64,000 bases of DNA, taken from Rhodamnia argentea (taxonomy: Eukaryota > Streptophyta > Magnoliopsida > Myrtales > Myrtaceae). A model generated the notes under the pieces. That model did not search any database. It was not told the origin of the DNA and was given only the letters and a program-made list of their open reading frames with translations. Location of the stretch: contig NC_063152.1 in NCBI RefSeq assembly GCF_020921035.1, forward strand, positions 11,732,001 to 11,796,000, given 5' to 3'. Below are positions 2,939 to 63,382 of this stretch, piece after piece. The translations under genes were made by a program, and so were the position numbers. Within the stretch, counting starts at the first letter, position 1; the number at the start of each line of letters is the position of its first letter.

Positions 2939-3063
2939 TGATTAATTTTATTTTGTCGTATGGTTAATTTGAGGACATTTTTGTGGAATCTGAGGTGATT
3001 TTATTTATAAGTTTTTAATGAGTTATCCAATTAGGTCAAGATATATATTTTGATTTGTCTTCA
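2939..3063 (+). repeat. Right terminal direct repeat of TRIM-like element
   Basis: This is the counterpart of 2002-2128. Its core runs from TGTC (2954) to TCA (3063), essentially the same length as the left copy, with scattered substitutions. Confidence 0.65.
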
Positions 3064-4060
3064 TTTACTTCTCTCCTTAACTTTAGGATTCTAGATTAGA
3101 AAGTTCGGATTACTTTCAGTGATTTTTTTTTTATCATATCAGATATTCCAATTTTGAACTCTAAGTGTTAGAAATAAAATATTACAAAACGCAAGAATGC
3201 ATGCGCAATGAACGTTCTCGAGGTCCAGTGATCTTAATATAGAAAATTACTCAACAATAACTCATTGTAGCAGATTATGCGACCTTGCTAGCGACTTATC
3301 CTCACTTATAACCAAACGTTTAAGTGATTGCTGATCGATGTCATTAATTTTGTATTTAACGATACGTTTGTTTTTTAGGAAAACTTTATGATAAAAGAAA
3401 ATATTTTCTTATTTTTAAATTAGGGTATTCATTTTATCAACTATAAATACGCATATTTACTGACCGTAAATAATTTTCCATTTACTATTTATTTTCAGCA
3501 AATCAAATAAGTGAAAACTTGAAAATCTAATTTGTAGAGAATCGTTTTACTCAATCAAGTAAATTCTAAATATTGCCATGTGATCGAAGGACGGAATTTT
3601 CTCTTTCTTTCTTTTCTTCCCTTCTCTTATTTTGCTCAAAAAAACCATATGGTGGTGAACAGGCAGAGTTCTTTTACTATATAAATTTTGACTTCTAGAT
3701 TTACTAATAATGTAGCTAAATCTATCAATTGTCCATTTTTGTTTTGTTTTGTTTTGTTTTTTTTTTGGGAAGGGGGTCGTCCATGAAGCTTCGGAGCACC
3801 ATAATAGATAATACCATGTGCTATATTAACTAACATGCCATTGACCCTAATTCCACTCTAAAGTCATATTCTACACGATTATCGTATGACCGTGTTGCAA
3901 CATTAATTAATGTAGGATTAGGTCTGATGCGTGTTTCGGAACAATATCATAAAGTAGTTGAGCAAGCCAAAATAAGGCCATTCTTTAAGCAAAGAACCAC
4001 AGTGTGTACACTCAGTAGAAAAGCTAGCTAATAAGCGTGTAATTAAGAAACCGAAGAGGA
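3064..4060. other. Intergenic, no gene seen
   Basis: This is AT-rich spacer. Around 3360-3545 there is a weak inverted similarity (GTTTGTTTTTTAGGAAAA against the reverse of the sequence near 3530) that could be a decayed MITE. Nothing else is supported. Confidence 0.5.
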
Positions 4061-4072
4061 CTTTTCAATGGA

Positions 4073-4385
4073 CTAATTATCAATTATGTTAAATTGTATC
4101 TCGAGTTTGAGTTCGTGAAAGAAATATGATCCAAATAGGGATTCCAAATCCCAATAAGACTTGTGGGTTTTGCTTTGGTTGTAATCTAGGGTTAGGAAAC
4201 ATTTACATGATTGATTGAACGATTGTAATCCCTCCGAATCATAGTGGATATGGTTGCGGCTCGCTCTTTTCATGAAATAGGTATTGACACTCGGATCGAA
4301 CCAGGTAAATATCTTGTGTCATTATTGTTCATCATTGATTTCTCTGTTAATATCTTTTCCCCGAGTTAGACTTAAATTGTTAAAT
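4073..4385 (+). repeat. Possible Copia-type LTR remnant
   Basis: The stretch has the feel of a Copia LTR 3' half: GTAATCCCTCCGAATCATAG, then GATCGAACCAGGTAAATATC and CTTGTGTC followed by a T-rich tail. Plant Copia LTRs often carry a 'cgaaccacgtaaat..cttgtgtc' block. I see no partner LTR, PBS or coding domain, so at most it is a solo or truncated LTR. The call rests on remembered family flavour. Confidence 0.35.
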
Positions 4386-4391
4386 CTATTA

Positions 4392-5797
4392 GGGTCTGTT
4401 TGGCGATGATTCTGTTCCCAAAAAATGATTTCGATCAAAATCACTTTTTTTGATTCCGTTCCCTAGATGATTTTTTGAGAATCAAAATGCGTTTGGTAAC
4501 TGTTTAAAATTTTTGTTCCTGGAACGTAAACGCGTTTGGTAGCTACACAAAATTTCCATTCCCAATTTTTCATTTAAATCAAATAATTATATAATCACAT
4601 TTGATGGCAAAAAGGGAAAATAATCAAATAGTGATTATGGAGCAAAAAAAGAAAAAGAAAAAGTAACAAAATTTCCGTTCCCAATTTGTTTGTCGATTTT
4701 TCATGAGTATGCAATCGTTTATATTGTTTGAAAAGTAATTCGTATTACATTTACAGAATTTGTCTAAATCATTTATTTGTTATTATTTATCGTGACTTTT
4801 AGATTGATTACCAAAAAACAAAATGAAAGAAAAGCTCCTCATTGTGCAACTGCCTATAGTTTTGCACTCTTGTAATTACACATCGTACAAGCTTACAGGA
4901 CCCGCAACTCAACTACATTGATTTTTTCTTCACCCAACTCGACAAAATTTTTTGTGCGGCTCGAAAAATGGAGAAAAAATGGAGATTTAGTTGACGACGC
5001 GGAGGGTTGGGTCAAATCTTTAATAATAAAAAAAAGATAAAAGTTGAAAAAACATAATAGGAAATAAAAAATAAAACTTAATTAGAATAAAAAATAAAAT
5101 AGCTAAAAATTCGAAAAAAAAAATGAGTATTAGAGGTCCCTTAATATAAAAAATAAATTAGATTTAAAAATTTTCTAAAAACTAATTTTTTAAATATAAA
5201 TTTAAATTTAACTTGAATTTAAAAATAGGCTTAAAATTTTACAAAAAAAAAACTAATTTTTTAAGAAAAAAAGGGGGGGAGGGGAAGAATCTGGTGATGA
5301 GAATTTTTTTTCAAAATTTTAGCTATTTTCAATCTAAATTTTTTTAATTATTTTTAAATTATTAAATTAAAACTCTAAATATTTTTTATTTCCCCCATTT
5401 CTTAAATTTTTAATTTTTTTTATTAAATTTTCCTTAAATAAAATTTTTAATTTAAGAAAATTAGTTTTTAGCAATTTTTAAAATTGAATTTTAATTTATT
5501 TTAATTTATGTAAAGTTGAAAATCCACGTGGACTTTTTTTTAAAATAATACCATTTTATATTAAAAATTTAATTATAAGTATGAAGGATAAGTCATAAGT
5601 ATATTGTGTAAAAAAGTGATCCTCAAAAGTGTTCCAAAACACCGGAATCATCTTTTTTTTGCTTCTGAAAAGTGATCCAAAAGTGTTCTCGGGACCGGAA
5701 TCAAAATCATCTTTTTTTCCATTACCAAATATGTTTCTGATCCTTTTTTGTTTCTAGGAACAGAAACAGAGGATCAGAATCACCGCCAAATAGACCC
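4392..5797. mobile_element. Non-autonomous PIF/Harbinger (Tourist-like) element, 1.4 kb
   Basis: The left end GGGTCTGTTTGGCGATGATT and the right end, read in reverse as GGGTCTATTTGGCGGTGATT, are terminal inverted repeats. They are flanked by TTA at 4389-4391 and 5798-5800, the 3-bp target duplication typical of PIF/Harbinger. Similarity between the ends continues inward for over 100 bp in decayed form (repeated GATTC-GTTCC and TTTGGTA blocks). The interior (about 4900-5550) is extremely AT-rich with poly-A and poly-T runs and has no transposase ORF. It lies about 190 bp upstream of the HIPP TATA box and could affect that promoter. Confidence 0.85.
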
Positions 5798-5990
5798 TTA
5801 GTTTCCACCTTATGTTATAGCATGTTATCTGCACGATTAATTAATCCGAGTCTTTTATCTAACACTTTGGGCCCATATGTATCCGGAGGGAGGATCTTTT
5901 GACCTTTGATTTTAGTAGCTTTTTGGAGTTGAACTTTTGAAGCAAGTCATTTTCTATAAAGAGAGAACAAAAAATTGGTCCAAAGCTTTT

Positions 5991-5997
5991 TATATAA
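5991..5997 (+). promoter_or_regulatory. TATA box of the HIPP gene
   Basis: TATATAA lies about 300 bp upstream of the HIPP start codon, ahead of a purine-rich then CT-rich leader. If transcription starts about 30 bp downstream, the leader is about 270 nt. It would include two tiny upstream ORFs: ATG at 6050 (3 codons and stop) and ATG at 6133 (12 codons and stop). Confidence 0.5.
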
Positions 5998-6183
5998 GCA
6001 AGTTGAGCAAAAAGATTAGAAGAGAGAAAGGGGGTTTGTGGGGGGTCCCATGAAGGAATAAGATATTCTCTCTTGCCATCCTTCCCTGCCCCTATTCTCC
6101 TCCTGTTTTTGCCATCTCAGAATCCCATTATAAATGCTCCTTCAGATTCAAGCAATTTGCTTCACCAGCTGATCATCGACAGC

Positions 6184-6185
<2 letters not shown>

Positions 6186-6253
<68 letters not shown>
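6186..6253 (+). repeat. (CT)n microsatellite in HIPP 5' leader
   Basis: An uninterrupted CT run of about 34 units ends 45 bp before the start codon. CT-rich leaders are common in plants. A run this long is likely length-polymorphic. Confidence 0.95.
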
Positions 6254-6256
<3 letters not shown>

Positions 6257-6297
6257 AACTAGCAAGTCTCCGGATTTTCTGTCTCTATACCTCCAAC

Positions 6298-6443
6298 ATG
6301 CCGGTTAGATCTCTCTCTCTCTCTCGTCCTTCGCTGAGTGATGAGCTTCAGTGCATGCCATTGATGATCTGCAAAAGTTATATCTGTGATTTCCTCCATC
6401 CATGCATGTGTTCTGGGGTGGTTTTTATTTATGGTTTATATCT

Positions 6444-6487
<44 letters not shown>

Positions 6488-8578
6488 ATGAATAGGGAGT
6501 TTGACTGCATGCCACTGATGACGACCTACAAAAGTTTACGTCTGGTTTCCTCCATGCATGGGTTCCGTTTCTGGTTTCGATTTGGGGTTGTATCTGCACT
6601 TTGCGTTGGTTCTTGAAAAGCAGATATAGGCCAACATACACAAAAACTCCACAATTCCTCCAAATATCAACGTAATCTTCACTTCTTTTGTCGAGAAAAT
6701 TGTCCAAAAGCTCCTGAACCTATTGAACTTCTGTCAATTCAATCATAAACTTTTTAATTTTGCCAATTGAGTCCTAAAATTTATCATGTTTTATCGGTTG
6801 AGTTCAATAGGCCACAAATCGTTGACATGGATGCCTACAGTCCTAAGTGGCAATTATTTCATCTCTGTCTCGAAATAAATAAAAAACGATTCTAAAAATA
6901 TTAAAATATAATCGAAAATTGTCTACATACCGCCGATAATGCGACATAGGATGGCCGGAATCTACATCGGCGATTTTGGGTCAAAATTGACCGGATGCAC
7001 TCAATTGGAAAAATTAATAGGTTTAGGGATTAATTGACAAAAGTGCAATAGGTTTAAGATTTTTTAGAAAATCTTCATTCTTTTCTCGGTTTCACTGCGA
7101 GGTGAGAACCGAGAAGAGCTCAATGCCTTGATAACCTCAAGTAGATAGAGATGTCGATTTATTTTGGTATATATTATCAAGAGATTTCAGGGAAATGTTG
7201 CCTTTGTTTTTTTTTTTTTTTTTGTATTTTCTTATGAAAGATGCTTGATGATTGGTATAAATTTTGGGTCCATCTATATAATTCGTTTAGTACACGGTAC
7301 TATCATGAAATTTTTTTTTTTTTTGGTCGGAGTACTATCATGAATTGAGCCGCATATTTTTAAACCTTTTTCAATACTTGGAAATCTTCATTTTGCTTTT
7401 GTGATTTTCAGTATTTTCCGGTAGATATGAATTTCATTCTATTTTGATATCTAAGAGTTTAATTTATCTCAATTCCCATCTTATTTTCAATTCCATATGG
7501 TCTTTTGATGAGGCCATGATGGTCTGTTCTAATTAAGACGGATTAATTACTTCTTTTCTATGTTTTCAGATCGTTGAGATGCAAGTGCACATGGACTGTG
7601 CTGGATGTGAAGATAAGATAAGAAAAGCCCTTCAAAAGTTAGAAGGTAATTAGCAAACTCCATTAAACTTTGATTTATCGATGGGAAATCTCTCTTTAGC
7701 CAACTCATTTGTTAATAAAATCACGATACTTATTCTTCTGCATATAAAAAAAGTTACATATACACTTTTACTGTTAAATTTTCGGACTTTTCGATTTCAA
7801 GTTAAGAAAGAACAACTCAAGTAATTTTGATTTGCTCAGTTTATTATGTACCGGGCGATCTAATTGAAAAGAAAAAAAAATCTAAGGTGTACCCATAAAG
7901 AAAAGAAAAAAAGTCTGATGTACAAAAAGACTATAATACATTTTCAATTGGCGCGTTAATGTTTCAAAAGCTAGTCACATAGACAATTATTTCGAAATTT
8001 CGCATGGTTAAGCCTCGTCGACGTAAGCTACCATCACTTTCTTTTAATTAATTTTTTATTAGATTGGATGGGAAATTTACTTGCTCTATCGTTAGTTTTT
8101 TTTTGTTCCCAATTTGATAAGTGAAAATACCTCTTCCTATGTGCACTCAGGAGTGGATGAGATAGACATCCACATGGACATGCAGAAGGTGACAGTCACG
8201 GGGTGGGCTACCCAGAAGAAGGTTCTCAAGGCAGTGAAGAAGACAGGAAGGAGAGCAGAGTTCTGGCCATTCCCCTACAACCCTGAGATCAACAACTTTG
8301 ATCCACAAAATTATTATTATAACAATAACACTTATCACAATGATAATCATAATCACTATGAGCACAATGACAATTACTATTTCCACCAACCTAGTTACAG
8401 TCATCACTCCTATGAATTGCCACCAATACCTTCCTCATACCCCTATTATTACAAGCAAGGCTACACCAGTAATGATGACTATGGCTATTTCCACCACTCA
8501 CCTCCTCCTGCTATGGTTGATTATCAAGCTAGCTCCATGTTTAGTGATGAAAACCCTCATGCTTGCTCAATCATGTAA
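6298..8578 (+). CDS. Heavy metal-associated isoprenylated plant protein (HIPP)
   Basis: Three exons give a 169-residue protein: 6298-6303 (Met-Pro only), 7570-7645 and 8151-8578. All have GT..AG borders and matching phase. The HMA fold starts almost at the N-terminus with EMQVHMDCAGCE, where Cys12 and Cys15 form the metal-binding M-D-C-x-x-C motif, and continues through GVDEIDIHMDMQKVTVTG and a basic helix. A His/Asn/Tyr-rich linker follows (about 75-125), then a conserved tail and the CaaX box CSIM (166-169) for isoprenylation. HIPPs bind metals such as Cu, Zn or Cd and attach to membranes. They act in metal handling and stress responses. The tail SSMFSDENPH before CSIM matches the Arabidopsis subgroup I recall as HIPP28-30/45-like. 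The six-base first coding exon is inferred from family starts. Intron 1 holds a duplicated CT segment and a MITE. Confidence 0.9.
6311..6600 (+). repeat. Imperfect tandem duplication with CT tracts inside HIPP intron 1
   Basis: Two modules follow each other. Each is a CT run (6311-6325 and 6447-6484) followed by a related ~100-bp segment: TGCATGCCATTGATGA then TTTCCTCCATCCATGCATG in the first, TGCATGCCACTGATGA then TTTCCTCCATGCATGGGTTC in the second. This suggests duplication through the CT tract. Confidence 0.8.
6694..7077. mobile_element. Mutator-like MITE in HIPP intron 1
   Basis: The ends are inverted copies: CTCCTGAACCTATTGAACTT on the left, and the reverse of GTGCAATAGGTTTAAGATTT on the right. 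Similarity continues inward (CTGTCAATT, CCAATTGAGT). Flanks TTCTTTTGTCG (6683-6693) and TTCTTTTCTCG (7078-7088) look like a target duplication of about 9-11 bp with one change, which fits Mutator-type insertion. There is no coding capacity. Related copies lie in introns 1 and 2 of the cysteine protease gene. Confidence 0.7.
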
Positions 8579-10037
8579 ATGAGGTTTTTCTTTTTTTTTT
8601 TTAATTTTTATGGAGTGTTTACCATATGTAAATTTGTTTTGTAACATTAACGGGCTTTTATAATGCATAATCAAGGGAAATGTTATGCATTGTGTGAAGT
8701 TCTAGTATGATTGTCTATCTCGACAATAACGATCTTATCAACTCGTGCGACTATATCTTTAATTATAAGTGTAGTATTGTTGTCGAAATAGTCACATGAA
8801 TCTAGCACATTCTAAAAATTAGAATGTAAATCCTGATCAATCGATAATTTAATAAATTCACATCCTAAAAGAAATTAAAATTTCCACCTTCTCTCCAGTA
8901 TTTGTTTTTGGTTCCCTAGCTCCTTTCACACCCATACTTGCGTCTAACTTTAGTCTGCATCATGCTTTAACTTTCTGTTCAAACTCTATCCAGATCAAAA
9001 TACACTAGAAAATATCTGAAAATGTTAAAATGACGGCCCAAATTAAAAAAGAAAATTAACTTAATTCCGGCATAGTAATCACAAAAGCAGCTATTTTCCA
9101 TAAAAAGGTATCCCAAAATAATTGCCGCGATATATAATTTACAATTAAATATTTTGGTCTATGTGGTGTTTCATAGTTTTTTCCCTTTAAATATATTTTT
9201 ATTCTCCAAAAAGGATCATCATTTTGAATCATTTTGTCTTTATCTTCTCAAATCTAACATTAAATTACTATCTATGTTAATCTGAAAAATAACAAAACTA
9301 ATTGAGTTTGAATATGTTAATATGGTCATGTGGCCTTATCGGTTTTTCTTTGTGTTTTCATTTGAATTTAATTTCTAAACATACATATCCTACTTTTTTA
9401 AAATTCATACTTTCTCGTATACACTTACTTACCACCGCCCCTAAAACAAACATGTGAATTACTAAATTAATGTAATACCAACAGTAGAACTTCATTCGTA
9501 TAGGACAGATGATTACAAATGGTAAGAGCAAGTTGAAACATATCAAGAATAGTCCTTATAGTCTTTTTCGGTGTTTAACTTAACTCTTGAACTTTCATTG
9601 TGCTCTTTTTTTTTTTTTTTTTTGGTAACTTCATTGTTCTCTTTCACTAGAATCAATTTGGTCTTGACGTCAGTTTGATCCTGTTGGTATCTTCATTGCC
9701 AAATTGGCAAGATTTTTCAAAAGAATAAACCAACAGGGCATTAAAAAAAAGCCAGAAAAAGAACGTACAATTTCTTTAAAAAAAAAAATACCTTATCACA
9801 GATTCTCCCCCAACCAAATAAATTGGTTTGAAGGCTATATCGATTCATTGGAAAAGCCAATGAGACTATAATGGACGCAATTAATATTTGATAATGTAAT
9901 TGAATATTGAAGAAGAGTGGAGAGATTAGGTAATCAATTTCACGATGAGTGATTACCAGACTAACAACCTAAAAGCTATCATGTCAAAGTTGATTCCCTT
10001 GGCTACGTTTTGTAGTCAAGATAAAAGTCAGAATTGA
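8579..10037. other. Intergenic, HIPP 3' flank, no gene seen
   Basis: The first few hundred bases should contain the HIPP 3' UTR. The rest is AT-rich spacer with a long T run near 9608. I saw no supported gene. Confidence 0.6.
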
Positions 10038-10520
10038 AAAAATTTAGAAAAAATTGTAGATAAGGGCCTGAAGTGGCATAGCAATTTCAAATAAGGGTTT
10101 CAAGTGGACATGGAGTCTCAAAAAAAGGCTTGGCCTAAAGAGTATTTTTTTTCATTTTCCCTTTTTGATTTTTTATCTTTTTTATTTGTTTTTTTCCTTT
10201 TTGTGTTTTTTAAATTAAAAAAATTGAAAAACTTGAAAGGAAAAAAAGGAGCAAACACGGGCGGGAGGGCGTGTGTTTGCTCTGCCTGTGTGTGAATATT
10301 TTTTTTGTTTGTTTAATTCTTAAAAAAAAAAAAGGAAAAGACAAAGAAAAAAGGAAAAAAAATCAAAAAAGTGAAATAACAAAATTGCCCTTGAGACCAG
10401 GCTCTTTTTTGAGACTTCATTGCCACTTTAGGTTTTTATTTGACATAAAGTTCACGTCAAATTCTTATTTGAGAAAATAAAAGCACTTCAAGCTCTTATT
10501 TGAAATTTTTCCTAAAATTT
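10038..10520. mobile_element. MITE-like element with ~100-bp terminal inverted repeats
   Basis: The left end (about 10040-10135) has ATAAGGGCCTGAAGTGG then TGGAGTCTCAAAAAAAGGCT. The right end read in reverse has ATAAGAGCTTGAAGTGC then TGAAGTCTCAAAAAAGAGCC. The core between them is low-complexity T- and A-rich DNA. I could not identify a clear target-site duplication, so the superfamily is unassigned. Confidence 0.6.
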
Positions 10521-12639
10521 ATCATATTATATATTTGGTTCCTATGCGGGATAGGGTAAAGTGATATAGGAGATATGCCCCGGATAAAATTATTCATTGG
10601 AGGAGGTGACATAAAGGTGGATAGGATTTCTTCTGTTTAAGATATAAAAATTATTTTTTCTCGAATAACAACTTCTTGGATAATAAAACTTAAATTATAT
10701 TATATTTAACTTATATTTGAATTCTAATGCTAAACAAATTGCAAAAAGACCATTTTTGTTTTTATTTATTCCTATTTTTATTTATTTGTTTGTATTTCTT
10801 TCTAGTTTATAATATATAGTTTGTTTATACATATATATATATATATGGTATATATATCATTACATATTTTAAGCATTATAGTATAGTTTAATAAAAAATT
10901 TATGAAGAAATGATGGAAGGGAATAAAAATAATGATACATAAGAGATTTAAAAATAAAAAATAAGTAAATAAAAATGAAGTAGAAGAGTCCAATTTTTAA
11001 ATGCACATATTCGAACATGAAAATGATTGTTCTAATTCTTGAAGAATAAAGAGCAATGAAATTTCTACAAAAAAAAAAATTAGTATTTCCATCTCCTTTT
11101 CCTCTGTATATCTAGTTCATGTTAAAGTTTCACGACTCATTTGTAGTTTTTTAGTTCACGTCAAAACTCTAAGAAAATGGCGAGAGAGTCTCAACTTTTT
11201 CTTCTTCTTTGTAGCTTTCTATTTCACATCAAAAGTCTATGCAAGCAAAAAAAAAATCTTCTCCTCCGTTTCTTTATAGTTCATGTTGAAGGTTTAACAG
11301 TAACAAGAGAGGTAAAACTTTTCATAGTCACAAAGGGGATTATCATATTTTTTTTCCTCTCTTACTAGATTTGACACTAAATTATGAGAGATTCTTATAA
11401 TCTTCGTTTGTACATTTTTCAGTTCTTTTATATAGACATGTCATAAATACCGAACAATGAACATGATATCATATGATATAAACATATCTGAAATTATTAC
11501 TACGATTAAATGGCAAAATCTCTCGATTTCATATTATATTTTATCCATTCATATTATGACTAGAAATCCATACAATCAAACACAACGGGATTGGCCTAAA
11601 ACCAATTTGGTCGTTTCCAAGGTCGACTAGGGAACTAAACCCAGATAATAATAAAAATAGGTTCTGAATTTTGGTCCAAAGTTCAATGCCATAATTGAAT
11701 TTTTAATTTATACAATGCGGTCCTTGAACTTTGACTGAATGTGTAATGTCCCTCATAAACTTTTGATTTGTACAATATGATTCCTAAATTATCGGTGAAT
11801 AAAAGGAAAATTAATACTCGAACAACCGATCGATCCAACGGTTCACGGTATAAAATGGGGGAATCAAACTGGTGGAAGCCGGTTTAAGACCTTACCCAGC
11901 CCCATGTTGTCGACTATGTTACACAATTTTTTGCATGTCGGACGCTCTTGATGGGATACACTCTCGAACCAACCAAATTTTATACTTGAAATCCAGCCCA
12001 AGCACCATGGGCCTTACTAATGGCCCAACATTGTGCCCAACTTAAGACATTAGGGCCCCCATTTTATAAGGAGTTGTCCCTTGCTTCTTCTTCTGTTTCT
12101 CAACCAATGTGGGACATGGACCACACCAGGGAGGAAGAAGAGAGGTACCGTCAAAAAGAAAAAGAAGAGAAAAAACTTAATGCGTGAAAATAGAAATGTG
12201 CAAGGCAAGAAGTAAATGATTGCCTCTTAAAAAAAAAATTGACAAAAAGAAATTACTTCAGAGTAAATCTTTGTACTCTTTCACCTAAGTAAATATATAC
12301 TTGATGCTAGTGATGGCTTAGAGTAAGAAGAAGCAATAAAGTAATGCAATCACCGAAGTCATGGAATCCACGCATAAGCAGAACTCAATGTTGAAATAAA
12401 TTATTATGTAAATTTATTCTAGGACTCTTATTATTTATTTGTGCTTCATAAAAATGATAATTTAATATGTATCTATAAAAAAATATATTTAATACATAAC
12501 ATGTCCCAGCGTGTCGGAATTTTCTATTTTTTGTAAAATCAATTGCCGGCGTGTTGTGTCGTGTCGTGTCGGTGCAACATAAGTTGTCGACGGACTCCGA
12601 GTAAGATTGGTTGATCCGATTTTTGGATTGAACCCGGTC
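10521..12639. other. Intergenic, repeat-derived spacer
   Basis: AT-rich sequence includes a (TA)n run near 10831-10846, a fragment of a dispersed MITE family at about 11636-11810, and a GTGTTGTGTCGTGTCGTGTC motif near 12551 seen in related form (reverse complement) near 53180. A segment around 12000-12130 with CAACCAATGTGGGACATG is of a kind often found in plant LTRs. No gene is supported. Confidence 0.5.
11636..11810. repeat. Fragment of dispersed MITE family (see 52149-52562)
   Basis: Alternating blocks such as GAATTTTTAATTTATACAAT, GCGGTCCTTGAACTTTGAC and TGATTTGTACAATATGATTC match the terminal blocks of the element at 52149-52562 and the copy near 61555. Only part of the element is recognisable here. 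Confidence 0.5.
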
Positions 12640-14480
12640 GATTGTGGGTTTTTTTCCAAAATAATTTTTTTAAAATAAATATTTACAAAATTATTTTTTA
12701 AAAATAAATATTTACTGATTTGGGCCTCGCTCGGTGGTTGGATTGCCGAGCGAGGCCCGCTTCGGCATGGGCCCGCCGAGCAAGGTGTAAATCCGGCCCG
12801 ATTCCTTTTTTTTTTTTTAATTTCATTTTTTTTTAAATTATTGATACTTAGAATATTTATTTTATTTATAATTTTTTTTCTTGTGAAGCTTATATTTATA
12901 ACATTATTAGCAATAATTAATATAAATATTTATTAAGATATATAATTAATAAATAATGTTGTGATATAATGTAATATAGCCGCAAGAATATGTTGGAAAC
13001 CGCAATAATAGGTAGATGGGAAACCATGACAAAAGAGTTAAAAACCGCATGGAAAGATTAAAAACCGCGACGAAAGAGTGGAAAGGAGTAAAGAAAGGGC
13101 AAAACTTTAGAAGAGCATATCTCATTGCTCGGGTGTCCATTTGAGACAAAATTTTCTTTTATTTCACCTAATTTTTCGAGAGGAATCCATTGCAAATAGC
13201 CGTAGGCGGTTTGGCGAGACTTTTTCCCCAAAAAATGCCGTTTTCCTTGTCAATTTTACATTTTCTCCCTTCGGTGCCACTTCTCTATATCGAATGAACC
13301 CCTTTTCCCTCTTTCCTCTTTAATTTGGACATGAAAAACTGCCTAGACCCCTTTCCCACTACAAAAGACGTGATTTAATGAGTCCGGCATGGAAAGATTG
13401 AAAGAGGAGAAAGGGAAAGGAGGGTTCATTCGATATAGAGAAGTGGCACCGGAGGGAGAAAATGCAAAATTGACAAGGAAACGGCGTTTTTTGGGGGAAA
13501 AGTCGGGCCAAACCGCCTACGGCTGCTTGCGATGGATTCCTCTCGAAAAATTACGTGAAATAAAAAAAAAACTCATCTCAAACGGACGCCCGAGCGATGA
13601 GATATGCTCTTTCAAAGTTTTGCCCTTTCTTTATTCGTTTCCACTCTTTCACTGCGGTTTTTAATCTTTCCATGCGGTTTTTGACTCTTTTGCTGCAATT
13701 TCCCGAAAATACTAAAAAAATAGGAAAACCCATCTAGACGATCTCGAATCGCAAAAATCTATCGTTCATCCCCGCCAACGGCGATGAATATTGATTAGGA
13801 CGCCATTTCGCTTCAACCGATCGAATTTGAGCCCGATCCGATGTCGTCGACCCGATCCGCCGGTTCTTGACACATCACCGTTTTGCCTTCCGATTGTATT
13901 TTTGTCTATCCAATAGATGAATATATCATGAAAATCTCATTTTTTTTTCATTTATCTTACTAATTTTATTTTATGAATATTTTAAATTAATTGCATAATT
14001 ACAACATTATTTATTAATTATAGATCTTAATAAATTTTTACATTAATTATTGCTAATTATGTTATAAAGATAAGCTTCACAAGAAAAAAATTATAAATAA
14101 AATAAATATAAACATGTTAAAAAAATACGAAATAAACTAAATATTATAAATATAAATAATTAAAACACTTAAAAAATGAAATTAAAAAAAAAAAGAGAAA
14201 AGAAAAAGCCCCGCTCTGCAATGGTATGCGCTGAGCAAGTGGGTCGCTCGGTAGTCCAAACCCGGCTGACCTAGTTGCCGAGCAAGTGGGTGCTTCGGCG
14301 ATCAACTGCCAGCCAGCCCCAGCCAAGGGCCCAACAGGGCTTGCTCGGCGGTTGGGCTGCCGAGTGGGCCTCGCTCGGCAACCCAACTACCGAGCGAGGC
14401 CCAAATTGGTAAATAATTTTTTTTAAAAAATAGTTTCGTAAATATTTTAAAAAAAAATTAAATTGAAAAAAAAACCCGTC
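12640..14480. mobile_element. Large foldback element (long imperfect inverted repeat)
   Basis: The left arm (about 12640-13333) is the reverse complement of much of the right arm (about 13388-14480), with a 54-bp loop. Matching landmarks: GGGCCTCGCTCGGTGGTTGG near 12721 against the block ending 14403; TTCTTGTGAAGCTTATATTT near 12878 against AGATAAGCTTCACAAGAAAA near 14068; and CGAGAGGAATCCATTGCAAA near 13178 against its complement near 13530. The right arm carries about 250 bp (13715-13960) and extra GCTCGGCG-rich sequence (14215-14370) lacking on the left. A short ORF at 13389-13664 falls inside the arm and is probably fortuitous. No transposase is seen. The outer end lies within about 20 bp of the start of the lipase leader region. 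Confidence 0.85.
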
Positions 14481-14489
14481 GATTGTTCA

Positions 14490-15021
14490 CCCGCTGTTGC
14501 GGCTTAAGTTATCGGAATAACACAGTTCAAAAGAAGCAGCAGAGGGAGCCACTTTCTCGTTCTCTTGTCTCCTACTTCACAGTTCACACAACCTACCAGA
14601 TTTTTCCGTCCATCGCCACCGCACAGGTGTCCTCTCAGTCTTCGCTTTCCAACGAACGCCAAAATGTATCGACTTTTTTCCCAAAATTCGCAAGAAATTG
14701 GAGAGAAAGACGCAAGCTTTGGCCTTTTGCAGGCGGCAATTCCGATTCTGCTCCTGAATTTGGCAAGTAATTCCAAAATCTTTGGTGGGTGCGCGAGCGT
14801 GGGTGCGCCAGTTCTTGAACCCATCACCAATGTCCGCACGGCGAGAAGACCGAGAAGCGTGGGCGCTGTCTGCATCGCCTCCTTCTGATCAGTGAGGATA
14901 ACAAAATTTATGGCGATTGGTCGAACACCCTGAAACTGCGCGAACCCATCTCTCTCTCTCTCTCTCTTCCCGTGCTTTGTTGGCTTCGCCCATCTGGAGC
15001 TTTCTGGCTTTGTCTATAAAG
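14490..15021 (+). promoter_or_regulatory. Lipase promoter/leader region with upstream ORFs
   Basis: Sequence between the foldback element and the lipase ATG is CT- and GC-richer than its surroundings and looks like a plant core promoter plus 5' UTR. If transcribed, it holds a 74-codon upstream ORF (14664-14888) and a 7-codon one (14910-14933, MAIGRTP), which could lower translation. No clear TATA box was identified; TATAAA at 15015 is too close to the ATG. Confidence 0.4.
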
Positions 15022-15169
15022 ATGGCTGCGGCTCCTTTCGTACACGCGCGATGCGGTTGCTCGCCGAGGCTCGGTGGCAGTTTCAGGAACGGCTCGCACG
15101 GATCGATTGGTTCTAGCTCGTACCCTTCTTCATCTACCACGCCGTGTGCTTCTTCTTCTTCTTCTCCGA

Positions 15170-44329: not shown

Positions 44330-45473
44330 AAATAGTTTTTATTTTTTTATTTTTAAAAAATATTATATTTTTTTTACTTATAAAAAAAAAGTAAAAAGTA
44401 AAAAATAAAAAATATAAACTAATATAATTGAGGCTTATTTGTGAGTGATGCTTGGGAAGTTGTAGGCCATGGGGTCGAATATGGGTTGAAAATGGATTGA
44501 GTTATAAACCTAAATCTATATTTGATCTATTTTTTAAATCTATTGAATTAATATGTAACCCGAGTGAATCAAAGTGAGTTAGAAAGTGGGTCAAAGACTT
44601 ATATCGACACCTCTAGGAGCCAAACACTCGGAGTAATGAATAGTCCGAATAAGACGGAATATGGGCCTCGATTGCCTAGAGCAATGGGTGGAAGCCGATT
44701 GATCAAACGATTCATTGTTGTAAACGCCGCCACCAAATCTGTAAGGTTTCGGGATGGACACGCTTCGACTACGCCTCAATGTATTGACATGGATGGAAAG
44801 GTAGTTGAGTCAAAAATTGCAAGACTACCATGTGGTCTATGCGGGTTCCTTCCCAATTATATCGTGAGTGCGCTCCTCGACTCGAGAATCCGTGACTTGT
44901 GCGTGAAGATCTTTAGACGAAGTTGGATTTTTACGACCGCGGGGCATTTTTTGATGTAATAATTCACTTATTTCTATGCATCGTCGAGCCAGGTTAGGAG
45001 GGTTAGTTTGTCGTTCTCAAGATAATTTTTCTCTTGATACGATGGACCAATCCACCGTTACGAATATGTCGTACCTAAATGTATTTTTGTCGTATTCGAA
45101 ATTTTAAATGTTATATATATGTGTGTATAGATATTTTTAACAAACGAAAGATAATTGTTTTTTTTTTATAATTACGAATTTATTTGAGAATATTCAATTT
45201 ATTTGGTTTAGGATTAAAAAAAAAAAACCTTTATCACGAATATCCAAAAGAGTAAGGATAAAAGCTTTCTCTGGTTTCGAAGTAGCCCTCCTTTCTACTG
45301 AATATCTTTTGTTTTGTATTTTTTTTTTTGGAAATAAAAAATTTAAAAAAATAAAGAAAAATGAAAAAGAGAAAGGCTCCTCGGCCTCGCCCCCGATCCG
45401 ACAAGCAATCCCCAAGGTCAGCTGAACTACAACAGCAGACCCCGACCCACCAACTGCCGCCGTCGCCGCCGCG
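44330..45473. other. PEX7 upstream region, no gene recognised
   Basis: After an AT-rich stretch, 44564-44959 is open for 131 codons on the plus strand, but the peptide resembles nothing I know. Poly-A/T runs lie near 45147-45170 and 45220-45228. The PEX7 leader probably starts after about 45360. Confidence 0.45.
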
Positions 45474-46430
45474 ATGCCCATCTTCAAAACACCTTTTAAT
45501 GGCTACTCCGTCAAGTTCAGCCCCTTCTACGAGAACCGTCTCGCCGTAGCCACCGCCCAGAACTTCGGCATCCTCGGCAACGGCCGCCTCCACGTCCTGT
45601 CCCTTCCCCCCTCCCCCGCCGCCCCCATATCCGAAATCGCCTGCTTCGACACCGCCGACGGCGTCTACGACCTCGCCTGGTCCGAATCGCACGATTCCCT
45701 CCTCGTCGCCGCCGTCGCAGATGGCTCCGTCAAGCTCTACGACTCCTCCCTTCCCCCCGCCAACAACCCCCTCCGCTCCCTCCACGAGCACACGCGCGAG
45801 GTCCAGAGCGTGGACTACAACCCCACCCGCCGCGACTCCTTCCTCTCCGCCGCCTGGGACGACAGTGTCAAGCTCTGGACAGTTGACCGCCCCGCCAGCG
45901 TCCGCACCTTCAAGGAGCACACCTACTGCGTCTACTCCGCCGCCTGGAACCCCCGCCACGCCGACGTCTTCGCCTCGGCCTCCGGCGACTGCACTGCCCG
46001 CATCTGGGACGTCCGGGAGCCTGGCTCCACCATGATCATCCCCGCCCATGAGTTCGAGATCCTCTCCCTCGATTGGAACAAGTACGACGACTGCGTGATC
46101 GCCACCGCCTCGGTTGACAAGAGCATTAGGGTTTGGGACGTCAGGAATTACCGGGTCCCTGTGGCCGTGCTCAATGGGCACGGGTATGCAGTGAGGAAGG
46201 TGAAGTTCTCGCCGCACAGAGGGAGCTTGATGGCCTCGTGCTCCTACGACATGACAGTGTGCTTGTGGGATTACATGGTGGAGGATTCGCTCGTGGGGAG
46301 GTACGATCATCACACTGAATTTGCTGTAGGCGTGGACATGAGCGTGCTTGTCGAAGGGCTTCTCGCTAGTACAGGTTGGGATGAGCTTGTTTATGTTTGG
46401 CAACATGGAACTGATCCTAGAGCTCCTTGA
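45474..46430 (+). CDS. PEX7: Peroxisomal targeting signal 2 receptor PEX7
   Basis: A single uninterrupted exon of 318 codons encodes a WD40 beta-propeller. Blade-ending motifs are visible at SVKLYD (85-90), SVKLWT (131-136), ARIWDV (175-180), IRVWDV (218-223), VCLWDY (262-267) and VYVWQH (306-311). The start MPIFKTPFNGYSVKFSPFYE is the family N-terminus. PEX7 binds the PTS2 nonapeptide of proteins such as thiolase in the cytosol and, with PEX5 in plants, delivers them to the peroxisome docking complex. Length matches plant PEX7 (about 317). Arabidopsis PEX7 (At1g29260) is also intronless as far as I recall. Codon use is strongly GC-ending in the first half. A decayed copy of the last ~65 codons lies at 48010-48255. 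Confidence 0.97.
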   Translation: MPIFKTPFNGYSVKFSPFYENRLAVATAQNFGILGNGRLHVLSLPPSPAAPISEIACFDTADGVYDLAWSESHDSLLVAAVADGSVKLYDSSLPPANNPLRSLHEHTREVQSVDYNPTRRDSFLSAAWDDSVKLWTVDRPASVRTFKEHTYCVYSAAWNPRHADVFASASGDCTARIWDVREPGSTMIIPAHEFEILSLDWNKYDDCVIATASVDKSIRVWDVRNYRVPVAVLNGHGYAVRKVKFSPHRGSLMASCSYDMTVCLWDYMVEDSLVGRYDHHTEFAVGVDMSVLVEGLLASTGWDELVYVWQHGTDPRAP

Positions 46431-48009: not shown

Positions 48010-48255
48010 CTCGCTGGTAAATGGGTATTCGGGTTAAAGTGCAAGTTGGAGTTTGGTCGTGTCTTGTTTCTACAATATGACTCTGTGTTTGTGGGATTCC
48101 ATGATGGGGGATTTGCTTGTAGAGAGGTATAACAGTTGGACAGGATTGTGCTTGACCTTGATATGGGTGCACTTGTCAAAGGACTTCTCGCGAGTACCGG
48201 TTGGGATGAGCTTGTTTATGTTTGGCAAATTGGGATTGATCCTAGAGCATCTTAA
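48010..48255 (+). pseudogene. Decayed 3' fragment of PEX7
   Basis: The fragment aligns with PEX7 residues from about 236 to the stop. The first frame reads SCFYNMTLCLWDSMMGDLLV, against the intact SCSYDMTVCLWDYMVEDSLV. After a frame change it matches GLLASTGWDELVYVWQ almost base for base (48180-48230), ending with a stop at the equivalent position. Similarity continues into the 3' flank (GAGCTGATTTTATTGT at 48294). The N-terminal three quarters are missing, so it cannot make a propeller. A local partial duplication is more likely than retroposition because the flank is included, but PEX7 has no introns to settle this. Confidence 0.85.
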
Positions 48256-51168: not shown

Positions 51169-51755
51169 ACCAAAATCAAGGGTGCAATCAAGTCGAGTTG
51201 ATACAGTGTAGAGCTTCAGCGCCACTCGATTTGCTTACTCAGTGCTAGAAAATCGACTCGAGCTCGATCAAGTATCAAAATCTAGGCTTGAGCTCAACTC
51301 TGAATAGAAAATTCAAATAATCAGGGCTCAACTCAATTAACATATAGTAAGATATGTACTCGATCTCAAGCTTAATAAGCTCGGGTATTTTTCTCGCATT
51401 TATTTACGTGATGGCGCAATATCTAATTTCAAAGACTTTTGTGTCTTTTTATGTAATTGAAACCAAAATCAAGAGTGCAATCGAGTCGACTTGATACAGT
51501 GTCAAGCTTGAGCTCGACTCTATTTGCTTATTCGGTGTTGGAAACTCGACTTGAGCTCGATCGAATATCAAAATCTAGGCTTGAGCTCAACTTGAATAGA
51601 AATTCGAATAATCGGGCCTCGACTTAATTAACATATAGTAAGATATGTACTTGGTCTCAAGCTTAATAAGCTCAGATATTTTTCTCTCATTTATTTATGT
51701 TATGGCACAATATCTAATTTCAAATACTCTTGTGTCTTTTTATGTAATTGAAATA
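51169..51755 (+). repeat. Two tandem copies of a ~293-bp unit
   Basis: The landmark CAAAATCAAG recurs at 51171 and 51464. Most of the unit repeats with few changes, including ATCAAAATCTAGGCTTGAGC, TTAACATATAGTAAGATATG and TTTTTATGTAATTGAAA. It is rich in GAGCTCGA-type palindromic words. Confidence 0.95.
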
Positions 51756-52148: not shown

Positions 52149-52562
52149 TGGGATAATGACACAAATGGCCCATGAACGTTGGCATAATGTGTAATGTGAT
52201 CCCTGAATTTTTAATTTATTCAATGTGCTCCATAGACTTTTGGTAAATGTTCAATGCAGTGCATGAACTATATAAAAATATTTAATGTAGTCCTTTCATT
52301 AATTTGAGATTAGTGGTAGCATTGAACATTTTCATATAATTCATGGACTAAATAAACTGGTACAAAAAGTTGAGGGACTAACAAAGTAAATGTTTAGGTA
52401 CCAAATTGCACATTGGGCTAAAGTTCAAGGATCACATTGAACAAATTAAAAGTTCGTGGACCGCATTGTACATTATGCTATAGTTTAGGAATCGCATTGA
52501 ACAAATTAAAAATTCAGAAATCACATTATACATAATTCAGGAACTATATATTTCACTTTCCC
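52149..52562. mobile_element. MITE with ~100-bp inverted ends
   Basis: The left end GGGATAATGACACAAATGG and the following TAATGTGATCCCTGAATTTT are mirrored by the right end (reverse: GGGAAAGTGAAATATATAG, TAATGTGATTTCTGAATTTT). Internally, blocks ending in -TTTAATTT-TTCAATG- repeat. Fragments of the same family occur at 11636-11810 and 61555-61995. No ORF is present. A target duplication is not clear. Confidence 0.65.
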
Positions 52563-54896
52563 TACCCTATTTAATAATAGGCATTGAGCCACTGACCGCC
52601 ACTTCTATGCTAACTTTCCTCTTGTAATGGAACTAAGCTGAAGAAAGACATTTTGGTGAAGTGAAGGCTCGAAGGACTGTCCACTAGCACATTGTCTATT
52701 TGCAAAAGAAAGCAGCCAATGATGGTCCCATTTGATTTTACTACAACAACCACGTTCTCTCTCTATACAACAACCACGTTCTCCCTCTATACAATGCCTA
52801 AGTTACATCGATACTGGCATGTGATACGCGATACGACACGACATAATACGCCGACATGTCATTCTAAAAAAAATAAAGAATTTTGACACTTTGAGATAAG
52901 TTATACGTTAAATATGTATTTTATCATGTATGTATTAATATGTGAGGCACGATTAGATTTTTTTTTTTTTTTTTTGCTAGATATATGACTTAAACATATC
53001 AATTTTTTTATAAATTTACATTTTGGCCCTTAATTGATTGAAAATACTTAAAATTGACCTCGTGCACGTCAAAATGACATGTTGGGATACTGAACTCATG
53101 TGTCGCTAGCGTGTCTGGAGCACTGACCATATGTTGGTCGCATGTCGAAGAGTATCGAAAAGTGTCGGAGTATCGGACACGACACGACACGGGGGTTTTC
53201 GAAAAATGTCGATGCTTCCTAGTACAATACTCACCTGCTCACTGACAAAGCTGTGATGTTGGAAATCGAATCCCCACTTCCCATCTAATTTTCCTCATGT
53301 CTGACCTTATTCTAAGCTTTTTCTCCACAGAAATTTGTTCGATCACTGATGATTCATGTTAGTTGAATGGGAGTTGCACCTGTCCAAATTCCGCTCGTAC
53401 CAAACTAAGGTTGTACTTTCTGTTTATTTTATATTGGAAGAGATGGATTTTCCATTCAGTCCAGAACGTGGAAGGGAAGAAACTTCTGATTCTGTTGATG
53501 CCAATCCCAATTTATCAGGGATAAATACAAAATACTAGTGGATCTTGAGCTTCGCACGTTCAAATTTTATAAATCCAATCGATAGTGTATCCACAACAGA
53601 ACAATGCTATAAACAAAAGCCTAGAATGTCCCTAAGGTTCTATGTTTAGTGTGCTAACTCTGTCCTAGGTTTTGCCTCCATTCTAGAGAGCGGCTTCTCT
53701 TATTGTTAAAAGTCGATTCATTTTTATCATGTAAAATTAGGTACCGGACCCTTTTAGAACATTCAAGTAATGTTAGAGGATCTCAACGGTTTTCCGGCCC
53801 CGCCACTATCGAATAGTTATCGGCCGAAAGGAGTCCCAAGGCTAGCACTAACCTAAATAGAATGCTGGGGTTGCGCCTACATTTCGCGACTGTGTTTTGT
53901 ACAGTGTAATTAATCGGGTGTTGAGATTTAATAGACTTACAAGCTCTTTGATTTGGGAGGGTCTACCATATTTAGCCATGAACTTATTAAGGTACATAAT
54001 CCCTGACCATCCATCGAGTAACGCTAATATCCTAAGACTAGTTTTAAAGCTGGTATAAATAATGTTGTAGCAAACCGCAAGTCACCGTTTAGATAAGTGA
54101 GTGATATTCAACACCTACTACTAATTTGTTATATCACTTAGTATTCTAACTCTGTAAATCAACCTTACTTCTTCTTTTTTTAATAATCTAACGGCATAAA
54201 CATGAAGAACATATTATCTTCAGGCCCATGGAATGCTCTGCCAACCTCATGAACTGGTTTGGCCTGTACGAATGGCTTTAATTCTGATCGGTTGACACAT
54301 AATTAGTAGGATCGGATAGGTGACATGCCAATCTTACGAGGTTAGCCTTGTGATTCACATCATTTCTCTATCTCTCTCTTTCTCTTCTTCCTACGAAGTT
54401 CCTTATCATTCGCGATAAAAATAGTTTCAAAGATGTAATCCAATGCAATTTTTTTTTTATTAATCTTACTTCACTTAAAATCATTTTTTTTTCGTAGTTT
54501 CCACGTTATTATCTTTCACAAATAGCTTTCTACTGAACACTTTGATGCCGTCTGACCTCAAAATGCAAGTGTCGGATTTACAACTTGAGCAAACGATCTC
54601 TGTTTCTTTATCCAATTAAACTAATTTCATTTTGTAAAAAAATCAATTTTGACAAATTGTTTAGTGACCTCATTATGTTTGGTCTAATCAATCACAACGA
54701 TATATCATTAAATAAACTTTCATGTTATGTCTCGTTCTATCCACCACATTTTTTGTATATTAAGTCTATACCGTATCTTCCCCGAAATCTAGTACGATGT
54801 GGACACATGTAGACAGCATAATGTAGATACTATTATTGACTCCATAATCTTTTTCAACCTAATTACAATGTCTCTGCGTGAATGTGTGAGCGTGTG

Positions 54897-55827: not shown

Positions 55828-59895
<4,068 letters not shown>

Positions 59896-61554: not shown

Positions 61555-61995
61555 ATTTGTATAGTATGACTACTGAGCAATTGATAATTATTCAATGCGG
61601 TCCTTTCCGTTTGGTCAAAAGCAAACCAAACTTTGCTGAATTTTTAAAAAGTGATGAGTTCCATGTCCATAATTTTATTCATCTACTTCAGAAAGGGGAA
61701 AAAAAAAGGGTGTTAACATATCATTTATTATTTGATGACATGGATTATTATATCCTAATTCGAGATGAATATCTTACTTGAGTAATCCACGTGTAACTTT
61801 CTTTTTAGGTCCGTCGTTCAAACTTAATTGATTGAAGCCGCATTAGCAAATTTCAAATTAATAGAAGGGCTGCATTTAACATTATTTTCATACAATCTGG
61901 GGACTAGATTGAACATTTACTAATAGTTAATGGACCACATTAGATAAATGAAAATTTTAGGAATGATATTATACATTAGACCAAAGTTTATGGAC
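61555..61995. mobile_element. Decayed copy of the dispersed MITE family of 52149-52562
   Basis: Blocks such as TTATTCAATGCGGTCCTTTC on the left and ATTATACATTAGACCAAAGTTTATGG (near 61968) on the right match, in opposite orientation, the terminal blocks of the element at 52149. A 74-codon ORF at 61557 lies inside and is probably fortuitous. Confidence 0.5.
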
Positions 61996-63382
61996 CATTT
62001 GTCTCCCTCTCTTTTTAGTTGAACTTGAGGACAAAGAATATCACAAGCGTCATAATTTTCGTGAAGCATTCACACGAGAGTCGTAACTTTCGATCGAATA
62101 CAAGAGTGTCATAGCTTTCAATACTTGTGGCGAATGTTTCCTAATTATGGCACTCAACTAATCGATCTAAAAGTTATAATACTCTATTAAACATAAATAG
62201 TCAGGGTATTTATGTGGTCCATTAAAAAGTTGTGGTATTCAAATGAACTTGAACGTGGTGTGCCTATCCTTTGATTACTCATTATCCTCCATCACGTACA
62301 TGTTGATAATGTTGCATGTTTGAAACCTCATCACTAATGAGATGTCAAATCACAAAAATCAGGGAACATATTCTAGCAAGAATTTATTCAATTAGCATAT
62401 GGAAGAGTGAACATAACAAACCCAATCTAGTACCATCAAGGCCAATTTTAATTTCCTAACTTATAGCATTCTGCAATTTCCTTTTTTTTTAGTGAACTTT
62501 TTTTTATATTGAAATAAGTCCTGAAGTTCTCTCGACTTGAGAAATCAAATTCTTCATATTACCGACTATTATTGATCACGTATGAAAATATCGATGGGAG
62601 AAATGAAGGGGAAATTGCTGATGTGAGAGAAAATCTATACCATTAAAGTGAAGATAACAAGTGAAAAGAAGGGAGGTAGAGGAAAAAGGGAGGAGGATAG
62701 AGTGGCGACACATTCTCGAGCGTATCGAATACACGCGAGTCTAACACATTTCAACCACGAGACCCGCTAAAATCAAGGATTGGAATGCAATAGGTAACAT
62801 GGATCCGAAGCACAAAAGGGTTTTTTCCAAATTGGCAATGGGGTCCGACAACCCTTGGTCGCACACGTTAATTGTTTGTCGCGTAAGTAACGTCGCATCG
62901 ACCGATTGCTAGTCTTTAGCTATATGTATGGAGTAACTTATCGCCCCTCTATAAATCATCCCAACTTTTGCAAAATTTTGGAGTATTTATTTAGCTAGCT
63001 AGGTTACACTCCTTTGTTAATAAAGTGCTGAGATGCATAAATCTAGCAAGGGAACAAAGGATCGTGAGCACGTGTCAACCACAAAAAGACTTGTTGACTT
63101 TTGAGATTGCCTAATCAATATTGTATTCTCCAATTTACTCTTTCATGTGCATGTGATGGACAATACATATAACGCGGGACAAATCCCGTAAAGGTCGAAC
63201 GACAAGAGGGCGCCGACCAGCACTTGTCTTTTTGGGGTGATTTGCGCTACGATAGATAGACCGTATTCAATTATGTTTTGAGGGAATTTAATTATATCAC
63301 AAGTAGATTAATGAATCCAGACATATCATCGATCAAATTATGCTTGAAGGAATCAAATTCTAGGATTTTGTAAAGAAGTCCA
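61996..63382. other. Intergenic, no gene seen
   Basis: AT-rich spacer with no recognisable ORF, RNA or repeat. Confidence 0.55.

Follow-up and report, generated by a model that had tools for sequence, protein, structure and literature searches.

Locus and neighboring genes

The window, i.e., the whole 64-kb stretch of DNA that was analyzed, contains a giant imperfect inverted repeat of 1832 bp (12646-14477), which is bordered on both sides by a perfect 9-bp direct repeat. To its right, a gene for a putative serine esterase of the DUF676 family is encoded on the + strand and directed away from the repeat. The Pfam match of this gene reaches an E-value of 1.1e-24 over the whole frame and is strongest near 20.6 kb; a second DUF676 match was obtained in another frame near 22.4 kb (E 5.5e-6). 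We infer exon limits according to which the first exon plausibly extends from an ATG at 15022 to a GT splice donor at about 15221, leaving 535 bp between the right copy of the direct repeat and the start codon. Three further ATGs are situated between the inverted repeat and this position (14664, 14830, and 14910, the first of them opening a frame of 74 codons) and a TATAAA motif occurs at 15015, so that both the start codon and the transcription start are uncertain. The sequence-only reading, which placed the repeat beside the lipase promoter, is plausible with regard to the distance, and the repeat lies only probably near the transcription start of the esterase gene.

To the left, the sole Pfam signal between 3000 and 12636 (both strands, E ≤ 0.001) is a heavy-metal-associated (HMA) domain on the + strand at about 7.6 kb. 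This match is weak (E 0.00025, under Pfam's own cut-off) and 5 kb distant from the inverted repeat. An open reading frame on the + strand, which probably belongs to the gene with the HMA domain, terminates at 8578, about 4 kb to the left of the repeat, and is the nearest reading frame directed towards it from this side which we judged to be a gene. The scan for promoters and terminators relied on a bacterial model and is uninformative for this window, which we assign to a flowering plant from our reading of its genes. In the left flank, the segment 12478-12571 shows a 94-bp inverse match to 52829-52922 (75.5% identical) and represents a dispersed repeat near the insertion.

Architecture of the inverted repeat

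The best self-inverse alignment scored 709 bits, while none of 100 shuffles that preserved the dinucleotide composition exceeded 46.4, which excludes a chance origin. Accordingly, the inverted arms described earlier for this place are real, with a left side from 12646 to about 13325 (approximately 680 bp) and a right side from about 13397 to 14477 (approximately 1.08 kb). Aligned globally, the two halves are identical at 607 of 683 aligned bases, a count that includes some chance pairing within gapped stretches. The hairpin center (13326-13396) is mostly unpaired over about 70 nt in this alignment and hence larger than the 54-bp loop proposed before. Almost the entire element consists of one long imperfect inverted repeat around a small center, with approximately 440-480 bp of the right arm being unpartnered.

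Three main arm segments were aligned separately with gaps left out. The terminal inverted repeats (12646-12784, +, and 14340-14477, -) agree at 119 of 133 aligned bases, the middle arms (12853-12965, +, and 13998-14109, -) at 106 of 112 and the inner stem, compared over 13030-13340 and 13385-13692, at 270 of 303, corresponding to identities of about 89-95%. Within the boundaries of the unpaired center, the inner stem comprises 13030-13325 (+) and 13397-13692 (-). In addition, an AT-rich subterminal piece (12802-12850, +) pairs with 14147-14200 in 44 of 54 columns, which was likewise seen by blastn. A blastn search of the stretch against the window recovered the inner stem (13030-13692) as a structure folding at its own center with 84.3% identity over 669 columns, the middle arms with 93.8% and the terminal arms (12646-12784 and 14340-14476) with 83.7%, the first and last values counting gaps. 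No part of the inner stem was linked to the terminal repeats in this search, except for an AT-rich match of 32 nt with 72% identity.

Summed over the three main segments, 53 of 548 aligned bases are mismatched between the arms, with indels in addition, and the Kimura two-parameter distances between them amount to 0.114, 0.056, and 0.120. The divergence of the middle segment compared to the inner one gives p = 0.09, and heterogeneity is therefore not clear. The sequence-only reading had stated that the arms evolved separately. This is a fair description of the observed identities and indels, but a divergence of the arms may have been present in the donor copy beforehand, and for this reason a dating of the insertion from arm divergence was abandoned and no age is claimed.

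The asymmetry between the arms results mainly from two blocks found only on the right (about 13700-13997 and 14201-14339) and a small piece at about 14110-14146. Right-arm sequence lacking a left partner had been recognized previously, yet the amount exceeds the approximately 250 bp then estimated. The first block shows no Pfam match, and the CpG observed/expected ratio is 2.16 over 13693-13997. For this large block, a nested insertion was considered as the source and dismissed, as the longest matches between the searched edges are 6 bp and no convincing duplication surrounds it. The second block is GC-rich, mostly without left partner in the global alignment, and contains two 22-nt copies that are 82% alike (14230-14251 and 14277-14298). 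The small piece belongs to an extra segment (14102-14156) with an 11-bp direct repeat at its edges (14102-14112 and 14146-14156), so that it can be explained by slippage or, in the opposite arm, by a repeat-mediated deletion.

Furthermore, the element is weakly modular. Tandem Repeats Finder detected a 29-bp unit in the left terminal inverted repeat (12653-12715, 2.2 copies) and no such array at the right end. Imperfect units of about 20 bp are present at the base of the left inner stem (13021-13079, 2.9 copies, 71% matches) and in the right inner stem (13643-13690, 2.3 copies), so that the repeated units occur in 2.2-2.9 copies each. A small GC-rich palindrome at 12722-12758 in the left terminal repeat was read directly from the sequence.

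Termini and target-site duplication

Directly outside the inverted repeat, the 9-bp sequence GTCGATTGT is present at 12637-12645 and, as an exact match, at 14478-14486. It occurs just twice on the + strand of the window, and this pair is the only exact 9-mer match at an offset of 1841 in the window. Among random position pairs of the window, a 9-mer match with a slack of ±5 bp was found in 221 of 200,000. The direct repeat is exactly 9 bp long because the neighboring bases differ, and according to our reading of the alignments a shift of the boundary to an 8-bp duplication renders the two ends of the element unequal. The inverted repeat terminates in GGG...CCC, and when cut at the 9-bp repeat both ends read inward as GGGTTTTTTT. 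Exact ends flanked by a duplication in this way are the hallmark of transposon insertion. Neither the exact limits at 12646 and 14477 nor the duplication were given in the sequence-only reading.

Probable assignment to the Mutator-like elements

Mutator-like elements (MULEs) are described as being set apart from other DNA transposons by target-site duplications of 9-11 bp and as typically carrying terminal repeats of 100-500 bp (PMC3310237). At the present locus, the duplication comprises 9 bp at both ends and the terminal inverted repeats extend over about 139 bp. The earlier designation as a foldback element was correct, and the 9-bp duplication allows it to be narrowed down to a Mutator-like transposon of the foldback type. 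Membership in this superfamily is suggested by the length of the duplication, the length of the repeats, the ends and the position. The unequal length of the arms and the restriction of the 29-bp module to the left end were counted as points against it. A Pfam search in six frames of the element (E up to 1) returned no family, so that the element contains no recognizable coding sequence and is taken to be non-autonomous. Likewise, no Pfam transposase was detected on either strand of 3000-12636 at E up to 0.001, and blastn found no second copy elsewhere in the 64-kb window. A 22-base pattern of the inner stem had no exact match in the collections viral_contigs and genome_contigs, which says little, as these consist of viral, bacterial, and archaeal records. 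The capture of a gene fragment, as in Pack-MULEs, is unsupported in view of the missing Pfam matches, although non-coding or divergent sequence may have been captured. Taken together, the locus very probably represents a single insertion of a non-autonomous foldback MULE DNA transposon upstream of a plant DUF676 esterase/lipase gene.

In such an insertion, a MULE transposase produced elsewhere in the genome would act in trans by binding the long terminal repeats. The element would then have moved from a donor site and been joined across a 9-bp staggered cut, giving rise to GTCGATTGT on both sides. The inner hairpin may be regarded as an inward extension of the inverted repeats of the element. 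Its nearness to a gene start would be expected from the target preference of the superfamily. In maize, an enrichment of Mu insertions close to transcription starts is described, and the Pack-MULEs of this species and of rice peak just upstream of them (PMC7337890). Given this preference, the position of the element needs no special explanation.

Two other origins of the structure have to be weighed against the foldback MULE. Palindromes are a known type of artefact, and the locus might accordingly have been created during assembly or amplification, or be a local inverted duplication that arose without transposition. Near-identical arms would be expected from an artefact, but 53 of 548 aligned bases differ and indels occur in addition; with identities of about 89-95%, an assembly palindrome seems unlikely. 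Moreover, an artefact is not expected to leave a 9-bp duplication at the outer ends, so that this whole group of explanations appears exceedingly improbable. A different DNA-transposon superfamily (e.g., hAT or a Merlin-like one), or an FB-like element without MULE ancestry, could be envisaged as the element carries no transposase to decide the matter and GGG...CCC ends alone are unspecific. However, the duplication measures exactly 9 bp, while that of hAT elements has 8 bp. In addition, terminal repeats of DNA transposons are usually shorter than 50 bp outside a few families such as Mutator, according to PMC3310237. Such an origin is thus considered very unlikely.

Comparison with known foldback elements

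As a probable foldback MULE the insertion is an ordinary feature, real and of known type, which fits the kind of MuTAnT, FARE and Tm1. MuTAnT of Medicago truncatula is described as a foldback MULE family with GGGG/CCCC ends and 9-nt duplications that is often located near genes (PMC4486113). The present element shares with it long terminal repeats forming a foldback, which are only weakly modular here, the 9-nt duplication, G-run ends (GGG/CCC in this case) and a site probably near a gene. It differs by its length of 1832 bp, since 90% of 218 MuTAnT-related elements measure 200-300 bp, and also with regard to the mean terminal repeat of 47 bp reported for that family and to the TA microsatellites serving as its insertion sites, as the site found here is not a microsatellite (PMC4486113). 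The FARE foldbacks of Arabidopsis, now classed as MULEs (PMC4486113), resemble the element, as far as a comparison by description goes, in folding back through long palindromic repeats at either end (PMC4486113, PMC3169594).

Composite and unequal terminal inverted repeats are also known from Tm1, a Mutator/Foldback family of root-knot nematodes (PMC3169594). In 45 of 53 complete elements, its target-site duplications measure 8-10 bp, with 9 bp as the most frequent length; the arms within one element are on average 93.15% identical, and examples of 1080 and 2593 bp are described (PMC3169594). In contrast to the present element, Tm1 resides in an animal host, has other end motifs and includes members with a putative transposase (PMC3169594). 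Further, MULEs with multiple long terminal repeats likewise enclose more than one layer of inverted repeats within a single flanking duplication (PMC3310237). In these elements the inner repeats resemble the outer ones over 100 bp or more (PMC3310237), whereas the inner stem here is, apart from the short AT-rich match, unlinked to the termini by blastn. The value of the locus is modest: it provides a clean case of a MULE-like foldback that inserted upstream of a plant gene and whose exact ends and duplication are known.

Predicted hairpin and possible small RNAs

The predicted fold of the element RNA reaches -928.3 kcal/mol for the + strand and -919.9 kcal/mol for the - strand, compared to -365.3 to -533.2 kcal/mol in 11 other windows of 1832 bp folded on the + strand only (12 starts were drawn, of which one was excluded for its distance of less than 1900 bases from the element). 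If G-U pairs are allowed, the longest helix without interruption comprises 43 bp on the + strand and 31 bp on the - strand. In the four arm pieces, 32, 9, 82, and 141 windows of 24 columns contain at most two mismatches or gaps, and 0, 1, 0, and 13 are perfect. Owing to this very strong predicted fold, the RNA could be a Dicer substrate if transcribed.

The earlier suggestion that read-through transcription would yield a very long hairpin RNA which could feed small-RNA pathways is therefore possible as far as the structure is concerned. The supply of a transcript is the weaker part, as the lipase gene points away and the nearest gene-like reading frame on the left ends about 4 kb off. Transcription of a functional hairpin locus, which would be compatible with a MULE origin, might start in its own terminal repeats, proceed in antisense from the lipase promoter or read through from the left side, and the RNA might be diced to 21-24-nt RNAs directed against the lipase promoter in cis or against the parent MULE family in trans, as proposed for maize Mu killer. 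The predicted energies far below all control windows and the near-perfect 24-column windows in all four arm pieces speak for this reading, as does the precedent of Mu killer, an inverted-repeat MULE derivative with a possible hairpin RNA (PMC3440606). Nevertheless, Mu killer carries an inverted piece of a transposase gene, unlike the element described here with its lack of a six-frame coding match, and its antisense transcripts in silencing plants are described as not being read-through from flanking genes, with a contribution of the hairpin still possible (PMC3440606).

Besides the orientation of the lipase gene and the weakness and distance of the HMA signal, the nearest on the left, the base composition argues against such a function. 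CpG is enriched in the element and not depleted, with an observed/expected ratio of 1.38 compared to 0.81 in the entire window, and changes from CpG to TG/CA account for only 9 of the 53 arm differences. The composition thus gives no sign of long-lasting CG methylation, an indication that is weak because a young insertion would look alike. Moreover, no Rfam match was obtained in the window at the gathering score. A functional hairpin locus is accordingly judged quite unlikely. That the foldback has been retained as a regulatory hairpin, with antisense transcription from the esterase promoter supplying diced RNA that would set methylation at the edge of the promoter or act in trans to silence related MULEs, is regarded as highly improbable. 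If small RNAs did arise from the element, it would be comparable to Mu killer as a naturally occurring inverted-repeat locus, situated beside a gene promoter.

Further repeats and reading frames in the window

Apart from the foldback MULE-like element, several smaller repeats were observed. A second palindromic element of 363 bp (10084-10446) matches its own reverse complement by 70% and has no clear target-site duplication. At 52184-52536, an inverted-repeat element of about 350 bp features arms that are 78% alike over 86 bp, and its partial relatives at 61849-62005 and 11696-11781 perhaps form a MITE family with it. Another possible MITE is the palindrome-like sequence of 288 bp at 57327-57614, which is 64% self-inverse with the ends GCTGACGTAGA...TCTACGTCAGC.

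Tandem repeats spaced 84 bp apart are found at 2473-2831, partly within the open reading frame 2118-2747, and encode glycine/tryptophan-rich units, while a tandem duplication of about 293 bp with 88% identity occupies 51169-51753. An intronless open reading frame of 334 codons (45426-46430) encodes what we take to be a WD40/PEX7-like protein. A fragment resembling its last approximately 67 codons lies 1.6 kb downstream (48050-48249) and represents a truncated duplicate, agreeing with the reading frame at 81% over 31 amino acids and at 51% over 35 amino acids.
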